Assembly: GCA_013360395.1 (NCBI GenBank)
Contig: JABWBQ010000042.1
Span: 1 to 64,000, forward strand
Reading direction: 5' to 3'
Length of the DNA stretch: 64,000 nt
DNA from: Flavobacteriales bacterium
GTDB lineage: Bacteria > Bacteroidota > Bacteroidia > Flavobacteriales_F > PHOS-HE28
The translations under genes and the position numbers were made by a program. The notes beneath the pieces are model-generated. The model was not told the origin of the DNA and ran no database searches. It worked only from the letters and a program-made list of their open reading frames with translations. Of the stretch, positions 39,701-57,125 are shown in pieces (the stretch's first letter is position 1; every line of letters starts with the position of its first letter).

Positions 39701-39708
39701 CCCATGAA

Positions 39709-40112
39709 CATGTTTTTTAAAAAGAATGGATGATATGATAGGGGCTGTGGACAAGGTGGATGATCGGTTGGCCGCTCGCTTGCAGGAACGGGTTATCAAA
39801 AGTAGTTCACCGCAAGGGTGGTCCCTGTTGATCGTGCGATCCCCGGCAAGGCAAGGTGGACGGGGAACGGGCATCGGTCATTCACGATCGTGGAAAAATG
39901 GTGCGGTGTGTCCTGGTTGAGAACTCAATGGTTCCGTGCGGGTTCCTGGTGGTGCATGGAGCGGTGGACATCCCGGTAGAACATCTTGTTGCTGTTGACA
40001 AGACGATCGCGTATGGGATCGTGGAAAGATCAAGGGACGGAAAAGTTGTTGGGTGTTCTTCAACGGTCGTCCACAGGGATCGACATGGGGATCGTGAACA
40101 AGTGCGCCGGGG
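39709..40112. other. Candidate replication-origin-like intergenic region
   Basis: A non-coding gap, unusually AT-rich at its left end (39709-39740 is mostly A and T). It has nine GATC sites between 39762 and 40093. DnaA-box-like 9-mers are TGTGGACAA (39746), TGTTGACAA (39993), TCGTCCACA (40067) and CGTGGAAAA (39890). The right end carries the rpiB promoter. It could instead be a long regulatory region; no dnaA or dnaN gene is in the window. Confidence 0.3.
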
Positions 40113-40120
40113 TATCTTTG
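40113..40120 (+). promoter_or_regulatory. -7 promoter box of rpiB
   Basis: TATCTTTG, ending 4 nt before ATG 40125, a perfect TAnnTTTG match with leaderless spacing. Confidence 0.52.
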
Positions 40121-40124
40121 AGGC

Positions 40125-40562
40125 ATGGCACAGCACATCGCCATTGGCAGCGACCATGCGGGCGTGGACCTCAAGCATGCGGTGAAGGAACACCTGCGGG
40201 CCCGTGGGGCGGAGGTGATCGACAAGGGCACGCACGTACGCGAGAGCGTGGACTACCCCGACCATGCCCATGCCGTGGCCGCCGCGGTGGCCGGGAACCA
40301 GGTGGAACTGGGCATTCTGATCTGCGGTAGCGGCAACGGGGTGGCCATCACCGCCAACAAGCACAAGGGCATCCGTGCAGCCCTGGCCTGGACGCCCGAG
40401 CTCGGGCGGCTGGCGCGGGAGCACAACAACGCCAATGTGCTGGCCCTGCCGGCGCGGTTCGTGGCCACCGAGCAGGCCCTGGCCATCGTGGACGCCTTCC
40501 TGGACGCCCATTTCGAGGGGGGGCGCCATCAGTTGCGGGTGGCCAAGATCGAGCAGGCATGA
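40125..40562 (+). CDS. rpiB: Ribose 5-phosphate isomerase B
   Basis: A 145-residue enzyme interconverting ribose 5-phosphate and ribulose 5-phosphate. Landmarks are IAIGSDHAGVDLKHAVKEHL, DYPDHAHAVAAAV, the active-site loop LGILICGSGNGVAITANKHKGIRAAL and REHNNANVLALPARFV. The active-site Cys in ICGSGNG is present. The stop overlaps the next gene's ATG (ATGA). Confidence 0.95.
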   Translation: MAQHIAIGSDHAGVDLKHAVKEHLRARGAEVIDKGTHVRESVDYPDHAHAVAAAVAGNQVELGILICGSGNGVAITANKHKGIRAALAWTPELGRLAREHNNANVLALPARFVATEQALAIVDAFLDAHFEGGRHQLRVAKIEQA

Positions 40563-45607: not shown

Positions 45608-46537
45608 TCAGGCCGATGCCTTTTTGAACAGGAAGAGTGAGCTCGAGGTCGGCTTGTCCGAAAAGGCGCTGACCAAGTTGGACCAGGTCCCGATCGCCAA
45701 ACCGCGTAAGAGGGCTCCTGCGGTTCCCCGACCGCGGTAGCGTTCGCTGAGCAGGGCGATGTAGGGGGCATCGAGCCAAAGCCGTCGCACCGCCACGGGT
45801 TCGAACCCGTGTTCCGCCACCAAACGTTGCAGGTCCCTGCGGCGGAAATGGGAAAGGTGGCGGGGCACGTCGTAGGCGGCCCAGTCCGTGCCGTAGTACG
45901 CCGCATCCCAGCTCTCCCGGTCGGGCACGGCGATCACCAGCAGCCCGTCCTTGGCCAGGAGGGCGAAGAGCCGTTTCAGGGTGCTGCGCAGGTCGGGCAC
46001 ATGTTCCAGCACGTGCCAGAGCGTGGCGATGTGCAGTTGTTCCGAACCCGGCACCTGGTCCAGGTCCGGGTACACTTGGATGGCGTGGTTGGCGATGGCC
46101 TGTTCGCGCGCTTTCAGCGAAGGCTCCACCCCGGTGACCAGGTAGCCCTTGCGTTTGAGGTAGCCCAGGAATTCGCCGGTGCCGCAGCCCACGTCGAGCA
46201 CCCGACCGTTGGAACGGAACCGGGCCACAAGGGCGTGTTTCCGGGACAGCGCCCAGCGCCGTGCCAGCTGGTACAGCCGGTCGGTGAGCGAGTGATGGCT
46301 GTTGCTGTGGCTGATGTAGGAAGCGCTCTCGTAGTAGCGGCCCAGGTGTTGCGGGGCGGGGCGTGGGTTGGTGAACCGGAAGCCGCAGGCACGGCAGTCC
46401 ACCAGGGTGAAATGTTCGTGCGAGATGGAATGGTCCTTCACCTCCAGGGTCACGGGGAGGTCGGTACCGGTGCACAAGGGGCAGCGGACCAAGGTATCGG
46501 AGCGGTGGGGTTCCACGTGGAACGATCGGTCGGTCAT
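45608..46537 (-). CDS. Methyltransferase with N-terminal zinc-ribbon (class I SAM)
   Basis: A 309-residue protein. The N-terminal Cys pairs CPLCTG and CRACGF bracket a small zinc-ribbon typical of this SAM family. Motif I is [16 protein letters not shown] near residue 110 and motif II is [24 protein letters not shown] is the conserved post-motif. The substrate is unknown, though such proteins often occur with glycan or cell-envelope genes. The start overlaps the mnmG stop (ATGA). Codons 6-10 (SFHVE) contain one of the parS-like palindromes. Confidence 0.87.
46510..46523. promoter_or_regulatory. parS-like site 1
   Basis: GTTCCACGTGGAAC, a perfect 14-bp palindrome matching the parS form used by ParB in Pseudomonas. 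It is followed by GATCG, as at the other two sites, and lies inside the methyltransferase coding start. Confidence 0.75.
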
Positions 46538-48414
46538 CGGCCCATGTACACAAGCAGTACGCTGATATCGGCCGGCGACACACCGCTGATGCGGCTGGCC
46601 TGGCCGAGGTTGGCAGGCCGGATGCGGTCCAGTTTCTGGCGCGCTTCCATGCTCAGGGAGGTCAAACGCAGGTAGTCCAGGTCGTGATCCAGGGGGACGT
46701 GGTCCAGGCGCCCCAACCGGTCGGCCAGGTCGCGTTCCCGTTCCAGATAGCCCTGGTATTTCACTTGGATCTCGGCTTGCTCGACGGCCTCCTCGCCGAG
46801 GTCTCCGGCTTGTTCGCGCCATGCGGAGGCGCCTGCGAACAGCGGCTCTAGGTCGGCATAGGTCAGCTGGGGTCGGGCGAGCAGTTCGAACAGCGGCGTG
46901 CGTTGTTTCACCGGGGTGGTTCCACGTGGAACGATCGCCGCATTGAGGGCCTCGGCGGATGGGCTTTCGGCCTTGAGCCCGTCCTCCAGGGCCCGGGTGA
47001 GCTGCATCTTGCGCTCCACCCTGCGCAGACGTTCGTCATCGGCCAAGCCCAAAGCATGGCTCCGGGGGGTCAGCCGCAGGTCGGCGTTGTCCTGCCGCAA
47101 CAGGATGCGGTATTCGGCACGGCTGGTGAACATCCGGTAGGGTTCCTCGGTGCCCTTGGTGATCAGGTCGTCCACCAACACTCCGATGTAGGCTTCGTCG
47201 CGGCCCAGCACAAAGGTCTCCCGGTCGTTCAGCTTCAGATGCGCGTTTATACCCGCCATCAAACCCTGGCAGGCCGCTTCCTCGTAGCCGGTGGTGCCGT
47301 TGATCTGCCCGGCAAAGTAGAGGCCATCGACCAGCTTGGTCTCCAGGGTATGCCGCAGCTGGGTGGGTGGGAAGTAGTCGTATTCCACCGCGTAGCCGGG
47401 ACGGAACATGCGGGCATGCGCGAAGCCGGGGATCCGGCGCAGGGCGGCCAGTTGCACCTCTTCCGGCAGGCTGGTGCTGAAGCCGTTGATGTAGGTCTCC
47501 ACCGTATCCCAGCCCTCGGGCTCCACGAAGATCTGGTGGCGGTCCTTGTCGGCGAAGCGGTCGATCTTGTCCTCGATGCTCGGGCAATAGCGGGGGCCGA
47601 TACCTCGGATACGCCCGTTGAACATGGGGCTCCGGTCGAAGCCTGTGCGCAGGATGTCGTGCACCTCGGGGCTGGTGTAGGTCATCCAGCAGCTCAGCTG
47701 CCGGGTCGGCGGCGCCGTGGCGGGGGAGTAGCTGAACTTGCCGGGGTGCTGGTCGCCGGGCTGTTCCTCCATGACGGAATGGTCGATGCTGCGGCCATCC
47801 ACGCGGGGCGGGGTGCCGGTCTTCATGCGGCCGGCCTCGAAGCCCAGTTCCACCAGCTGCTCCGTGATGCCGTGGCTGGCCTTCTCGCCGGCGCGTCCAC
47901 CCCCGATCTGGCGCTCACCGATGTGCATCACCCCGTTCATGAAGGTGCCGCTGGTGAGCACCACGGCCCGGCAGGGGATCCGCATGCCCAGGCCGGTGAC
48001 CACACCCGCCACACGACCACCCTCCAGGAGTATCCGGGTCACCGTATCCTGCCAGAAATGGACGTTGGGGGTTTGCTCCAGCAGGCGGCGCCATTCGGCG
48101 GCGAAGCGGTTGCGGTCGTTCTGGGTGCGGGGGCTCCACATGGCGGGGCCCTTGCTGCGATTCAGCATGCGGAACTGCACGGCGCTGCGGTCGCTCACCA
48201 GGCCGCTGTATCCGCCCAGCGCGTCGATCTCGCGCACGATCTGCCCCTTGGCCACGCCGCCCATGGCCGGGTTGCAGCTCATCTGGCCGATCACGCCCAT
48301 GTTCATGGTGACCAGCAGCACGCGCGACCCCAGGTTGGCTGCGGCTGCGGCCGCCTCGCATCCGGCGTGCCCGCCGCCCACCACCACCACATCGTAGGGC
48401 TCGGTCCAGCTCAT
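46534..48414 (-). CDS. mnmG: tRNA uridine-5-carboxymethylaminomethyl modification enzyme MnmG (GidA)
   Basis: A 626-residue FAD enzyme that, with MnmE, modifies wobble U34 of several tRNAs. The FAD motif [92 protein letters not shown], and the C-terminal [14 protein letters not shown] are all present. ATG 48414 is used. Two parS-like palindromes lie within and just upstream of the gene; gidA is a classic origin neighbour in many bacteria. Confidence 0.97.
46919..46932. promoter_or_regulatory. parS-like site 2
   Basis: GTTCCACGTGGAAC followed by GATCG. It is inside mnmG, encoding IVPRGT in a variable part of the C-terminal domain where codons are free to drift. Confidence 0.75.
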
Positions 48415-48439: not shown

Positions 48440-48453
48440 GTTCCACGTGGAAC
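48440..48453. promoter_or_regulatory. parS-like site 3
   Basis: GTTCCACGTGGAAC followed by GATCG, in the intergenic region upstream of mnmG. It is flanked on both sides by the 16-bp direct repeat CGATCGTGGAAAACCC (48419-48434 and 48453-48468). Confidence 0.8.
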
Positions 48454-48519
48454 GATCGTGGAAAACCCACAGCCCAAGCGGTGGTCCCGGTAGTGATCAT
48501 CGGTTGTTCAGCCGGTGGA

Positions 48520-55850: not shown

Positions 55851-57125
55851 CTACATGCGCTCGTTCAACTTGATGATGTACTTGTTCTGCCACCACACCT
55901 CCTTGTTGTAATAGTCATTCACGGTGTCCTTGAACTCCCGCTTGGGCTTCTCCTTGAGATAGTCGTCGAACAGACCATGCTTCTTCAAGAGCTCCTCCAG
56001 GTTCTTCTTCTTGAACCGCTTCGGCTCGCCATTCCACCCGTTCGCCAAAAAGCGCTTCGACTGGTCACCGTACATCGCATAGTGGCTGACCTCCCCAACG
56101 GCCAGGACTATGTAGACCGTTTTGCCGACCGTGCGCATCACCCAGGGCTCTGACGCTGTGGCCGGGGTGTATGTGAAGACCTCACCGGGCAGGTCCTTCA
56201 TCTTCACCCGCTTCGTGTTCCCGTTCTCGTCAATGACCTTCAACGAGTTGAGAAAACCGATCTCCATGGAGCCGGCCTTCGTCCGGAGCCCGGGGATGGG
56301 CTTGTTGTCCACCAGGTCCCGCAGGCTGGCATAGCATCGGCCGGCACCGGACAGATCATCGCCGATGTCCTCCATGGCCAACTCTTCGAGCGGCTGGAGT
56401 TCCTCCAAGCCGGATCCATTGAACGGGATGCGCGCCGAGAACATCTTGCTCGTCATCTTGGTCTCCGGATTGACCATGTGCAGGACGGTGCTGATGTTGC
56501 CCGCATCATCCATGCTGGTCTTCTCCAGGTTGACGATGCGCTTCACCCCATCCACCTTGCCCGGAAAGGTCTGTCGGGACAGTTCCTGGAACGATCCCGT
56601 CTCCAGGATCAGGATCTCCGGATCGTGGTCGTACCCCCGGGACAGGTTGTCCCGAAGGATCGCCATCTTGCTCTTGTCCGGCGAATAGTAGGTCGCGTAC
56701 GGGATCTCGACGTAGCTGAACTTCGTGTTGATCTTGGTCGAATGAGCAAGGCGTCGTGGCTCGGCCTTCTTCGTTCTATCATCCATCACGACGATGTAGC
56801 AGTCCTTGGTCTTGTCCACCGGGTTCCAGAGCGAATAGGTGATGATGACCCTGTCGTTCACGACGTTCACGGTCTCCCCGTTCGTACCGAACAGCAACTC
56901 CATCTTCTGGGATGCCAGGGCACAGGCGATCTCCGCACGGTACACCTGACCGCCGTCCTCCACCCTTGTCTTGGTCACGGTCGCGGTGGCATCAAGCATC
57001 ACAGCTTACTTGTGCTCGGCCGTGGTCACCGTGAGTTGCGCTGCGGCCTCGGAAAGGGACCCCACCGACATCAAGAACAGGGCCGCGGACCCCGACATAC
57101 CCCTGGTCATTCCACCAACGTTCAT
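55851..57125 (-). pseudogene. Secreted protein of unknown function, interrupted by an in-frame stop
   Basis: Reading from ATG 57125 gives a signal peptide (MSGSAALFLMSVGSLSEAAAQ) then LTVTTAEHK and a TAA at 57006-57008. In the same frame it continues AVMLDATATVTKTRVEDGGQ for about 380 more residues to 55851. The downstream part has YYSPDKSKMAILRDNLSRGY, RIVNLEKTSMDDAGNISTVL and PTR-free, Lys-rich patches such as RFKKKNLEELLKKHG. No family is recognised. Codons are visibly less GC-biased than in the neighbours, which may point to transfer. It could also be translated from GTG 57002 or ATG 56999 as an unsecreted protein. The flank from 57126 to 57247 holds only a hairpin. Confidence 0.65.

Follow-up and report, generated by a model that had tools for sequence, protein, structure and literature searches.

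The window, by which we mean the whole 64,000-nucleotide stretch that was analysed, is nearly the entire contig (64,094 bp) of an assembly of 3.68 Mb in 139 contigs that is 99.85% complete (genome G000). At 39701–40124 it contains an intergenic gap, which we predict to be oriC, the chromosomal replication origin. To its right is rpiB, encoding ribose-5-phosphate isomerase B (40125–40562, plus strand; PF02502, E 7.2e-57), and to its left is a MORN-repeat gene on the minus strand, which starts at about 39700 and diverges from rpiB. The constant neighbor of the origin is rpiB. It was found in 41 of the 45 genomes sampled from the genus, and the gap is conserved in 41 relatives. Rfam has no match within 38–42 kb of the window.

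The left part of the gap is a conserved 111-bp core (39704–39812, plus strand), and it begins with an AT-rich stretch (39704–39741; conserved TTTTTTAAAAAA) that is a putative DNA unwinding element. When the 32-mers of the window are ranked by AT content, the top ones all begin between 39690 and 39718, in agreement with the first-pass annotation, which had picked out the left end of the gap as the most AT-rich run in the window. A GAT-repeat with a GGGG spacer, TGGATGATATGATAGGGG (39727–39744, plus strand), is DnaA-trio-like with the phase broken, and its family consensus is TGATGATATAGTATGGG. Two putative DnaA boxes follow in tandem on the minus strand. The one proximal to the unwinding element, TTGTCCACA at 39746–39754 (TGTGGACAA on the plus strand), is one mismatch away from TTATCCACA, as had been pointed out in that annotation, and only two other 9-mers in the window come as close; TGTTGA/TGTGGA is conserved there on the plus strand. 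The second, TCATCCACC at 39755–39763, has two mismatches, overlaps a GATC and is conserved as TGTTGATGATC. Further on is another conserved element, GGTTATCAAAAGTAG (39791–39805, plus strand). The alignment of relatives gives the order of the core as an AT-rich TTTTTTAAAA, then TGATGATATAGTATGGG, the two tandem boxes (CTGTTGA-N4-TGTTGATGATC on the plus strand), a variable stretch and GGTTATCAAAAGTAG.

To the right of the core, a conserved near-palindrome, ATTCACGATCGTGGAA (39880–39895; alignment block 250–350), holds the most conserved GATC, and 9-mer comparison finds the DnaA-box-like sequences TTTTCCACG (39889–39897, minus strand), TTGTCAACA (39993–40001, minus strand) and TCGTCCACA (40067–40075, plus strand). 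No exact DnaA box occurs in the gap; all of the G000 boxes are imperfect, and the other three 9-mers cited in the first-pass annotation have two mismatches each. Across the rpiB gaps of the genus, TTATCMACA occurs 17 times versus 0.3 expected and ATCMACA 77 times versus 8.7 expected, and the DNA-binding domain of DnaA is near-identical across the genus. Judged by its sequence, the gap thus has the conserved cluster of putative DnaA boxes beside an AT-rich region that characterizes a chromosomal oriC.

This arrangement resembles the BUS origin of the Bacillus subtilis type (PMC8287927) in its tandem DnaA boxes, short GC-rich spacer, GAT-like repeats and AT-rich stretch, all in the same order. 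The BUS definition asks for a DnaA box no more than 16 bp from at least three in-phase NAN trios (PMC8287927). Read by hand, the G000 sequence has no more than two in-phase trios beside the box; since the GAT repeats shift phase, the formal trio rule fails. A further difference from the B. subtilis type is that dnaA is not adjacent. The single dnaA of G000 is on a different contig from the gap, and in two relatives with long contigs, they are separated by 1.47 Mb in G002 and by about 1.77 Mb in G037. At 1.5–1.8 Mb from dnaA, the origin would be missed by dnaA-based annotation. The dnaA genes themselves are at G002:C1:1530851 (L181) and G037:C1:438680 (L182), and the one in G037 is closer to the skew maximum (terminus) than to the origin.

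To follow the core among relatives, a sequence-only profile of 111 bp (R1) was made from 38 cores. It scores 80.7 bits (E 2.6e-24) at the copy in the window and has no second match there. It recovers the rpiB gap in 37 of the 38 relatives, with one match in nearly every one. Over 296 genomes of the class, it picks up 20 loci beyond the genus (E 2.6e-6 to 9e-4), of which 15 were read. Nine, from at least five other families of Bacteroidia, are located some 400–550 bp upstream of an rpiB gene, and their own upstream gene varies: the MORN-like gene again, nadA or another. Five others (L223, L224, L226, L232 and L236) fall inside the coding sequence and appear to be chance matches. By a crude gap measure, named Flavobacteriales, among them Flavobacterium aciduliphilum, Gillisia, Polaribacter and Wenyingzhuangia, have a non-coding AT-rich gap of 600–1100 bp with boxes upstream of rpiB, and by the same crude measure, that region is short or box-less in, for example, Chitinophaga and Algoriphagus.

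With G000 in 139 contigs, its own whole-chromosome GC skew is not computable, and the skew was taken from G037 and G002, relatives with complete or nearly complete chromosomes. The local minimum within the window, at 10.9 kb, is 29 kb from the gap and within noise. For G037, skew samples were taken along the 3.86-Mb contig, and the interval 2.30–2.82 Mb was read without breaks. Within that interval, the skew is lowest at 2.616 Mb, inside a broad trough that opens at about 2.53 Mb; the position of the gap is 2.532 Mb. The maximum, allowing for circularity, is at about 0.7 Mb, placing the antipode at 2.63 Mb. The coarse cumulative skew has another dip, at 2.2 Mb, in a part where a single 20-kb sample represents 100 kb. 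In G002, the trough spans 2.75–3.15 Mb, the maximum is at about 1.0 Mb (antipode 2.96 Mb) and the gap is at 3.004 Mb. In both chromosomes, the gap falls inside the trough, within about 0.1–0.25 Mb of the skew minimum and opposite the skew maximum. The parS sites point to the same region. Only three exact copies of GTTCCACGTGGAAC exist in the G000 genome, at 46510, 46919 and 48440, the cluster 6–8 kb away that the first-pass annotation had recognized. In checked genomes with both on one contig, exact parS are 5–9 kb from the gap, as in ParB-parS centromeres with GTTCCACGTGGAAC sites clustered near the origin, and in three other families, five genomes have canonical parS at 3–13 kb from the core.

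Since the gap combines this skew position and proximity to parS with the conservation of its core, we identify it with high confidence as oriC. The first-pass annotation had offered it as an oriC candidate, to be judged by whether the skew minimum lay nearby and the gap was conserved in close relatives, and it has held up on both counts. Among the papers searched, none mentions rpiB and oriC together with Bacteroid-. For uncultured Flavobacteriales, the result supplies an oriC that is defined by its sequence and can be tested, marked by the rpiB gap rather than the far-off dnaA, and knowing its location should aid replication-rate estimates from metagenomes and the correct orientation of genomes.

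The remainder of the gap is rich in GATC. The nine sites listed in the first-pass annotation (39762, 39830, 39838, 39886, 40005, 40017, 40028, 40078 and 40090; span 39762–40093) are all present, and its expectation of about one agrees with the 1.2 or so per 404 bp computed from base composition (GC 0.67); the window's own rate, 341 GATC in 64 kb (223 when shuffled), gives about 2. No 404-bp stretch of the window has more than nine, and one other place (about 56300–56413) reaches the same count, so the excess within the window alone is notable but not unique. The second stretch reaching nine GATC per 404 bp is at about 56300–56700. Comparison among relatives establishes the excess as real. In 41 genomes, the 400-bp stretches upstream of rpiB together contain 428 GATC, versus 111 expected from flanking DNA and 129 from dinucleotide shuffles. 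The strongest hexamer is ACGATC/GATCGT, at 13.1 per kb versus 1.0 in the flanks. Outside the genus, rpiB-upstream regions have no GATC excess, and therefore the cluster was added at the level of the genus to an origin of greater age. The sister genomes G001 and G002 retain the unwinding core, each with a single GATC in the gap.

GATC also marks the parS sites. Each of the three in the window is directly followed by GATC: the one at 46510–46527 is close to where a methyltransferase-domain gene begins, the one at 46919–46936 is within the mnmG coding region and the one at 48440–48457 is a short way upstream of the probable start of mnmG. As these contexts differ (a gene start, coding sequence in another frame and the region upstream of mnmG), they argue against a codon effect, with the homologous sites of relatives not being independent of them. 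In a set of 24 genomes with 68 parS, a GATC directly adjoins 48 of them (offset 0), and each of offsets 1–9 has at most one; because the parS of different genomes are mostly at homologous positions, the 68 sites represent far fewer independent events. The abutting GATC is always on the same side, which is away from oriC where the orientation is known. It is absent from all 11 parS of other families and from both parS in each of G001 and G002. Across genomes, GATC in the gap and GATC at parS are moderately coupled (Spearman 0.44, p 0.03). The coupling is imperfect, since G012 and G016 have GATC in the gap (8 and 6, respectively) and none at parS. The end of parS, GGAAC, together with the abutting GATC gives AACGATC, a word also enriched at oriC. 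The GATC abutting parS is a new observation; the literature titles and abstracts that we searched contain no description of it. The one-sided placement at 48 of 68 sites sets these parS apart from the usual ParB-parS centromere, and we know of no other parS that has it.

A dense GATC cluster together with DnaA boxes recalls oriC of Escherichia coli, and so does the nearby mnmG (gidA), here about 6–8 kb away. In E. coli, Dam methylates the adenine of these sites, and SeqA sequesters the hemimethylated DNA once initiation has taken place. A similar system here would be in keeping with the cluster and with the joint loss of GATC from oriC and parS in G001 and G002. However, no D12-family (Dam-type) GATC adenine methylase is encoded in G000, 99.85% complete as it is, or in 31 of the 45 genomes, and this speaks against the involvement of Dam that the first-pass annotation had left open. 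The N6/N4 methylases are patchy, being missing from 20 of the 45, and several near-complete GATC-rich genomes (among them G003, G018, G023, G034, G039 and G043) have neither family. The origin also differs from that of E. coli in favoring ACGATC and in having GATC at parS. On this inventory of D12 and N6/N4 methylases, we regard regulation of the Dam/SeqA kind as very unlikely. Very unlikely, too, is methylation of GATC or ACGATC by the C5-cytosine methylase widespread in the genus. C5 enzymes (PF00145) are present in 42 of the 45 genomes, and most belong to one group of about 420 aa with roughly 60–72% identity, which speaks in its favor. Yet G002, having no GATC cluster, encodes a member (L375, G002:C1:610478–611677; relatives L337–L373), whereas the G000 assembly, with the cluster, shows C5 enzymes of other kinds only, the 420-aa group being apparently missing. 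As none of the D12, N6/N4 and C5 methylases tracks the cluster, all were rejected as its keeper.

More serious, if still rather unlikely, is the explanation that GATC belongs to extended DnaA sites (ATCMACGATC, GATCMACA) and that DnaA is its sole reader. ACGATC is often preceded by T[CG][AC], as at the end of a DnaA box, and GATCMAC occurs 52 times versus 9 expected. Against this, 252 of 430 GATC have neither AC before nor GT after, and parS is also GATC-marked. Moreover, the DNA-binding domain of DnaA is essentially unchanged in G001 and G002 despite their loss of GATC; its divergence was considered as a cause of that loss and rejected, the sequences being nearly identical. The position between divergent genes also invites the reading that the gap is merely a promoter region shared by rpiB and the MORN-repeat gene. 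We consider this extremely improbable, given that the DnaA-box and unwinding architecture is kept across families even where nadA or another gene is upstream, and given the position relative to skew and parS.

Taking the gap as oriC, we picture initiation as follows. DnaA would bind the tandem boxes at 39746–39763 and be directed leftwards over the GGGG spacer. The GAT-repeat and AT-rich stretch (39704–39741) would then be melted by DnaA, and helicase loading would occur there. The rest of the gap (39762–40093) may serve as a regulatory array, in which GATC is often within ACGATC or DnaA-box-like contexts, and in this genus, the same GATC mark is also set against parS 6–8 kb away. Because GATC is common to oriC and parS, we infer one shared factor; with only moderate coupling across genomes, the case for it is suggestive. 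This putative factor would read GATC sequence-specifically at both places, linking initiation or origin handling with ParB-parS, a proposal that we make tentatively, as a real possibility short of a favored conclusion. It would probably not depend on methylation. With similar reserve, we suggest that it could be unrelated to Dam and SeqA and could coordinate initiation with ParB-parS segregation, the one-sided GATC orienting each parS away from oriC where the direction is known. The occurrence of GATC at both origin and parS in genomes such as G000 that have no Dam-type gene points to a possible link between replication and segregation, and it sets the word GATC at an origin apart from the methylation usually associated with it. 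The core loci of the two sister genomes, L415 (G001:C4) and L221 (G002:C1:3004037–3004137), amount to a natural loss experiment that can be used for finding the GATC reader.
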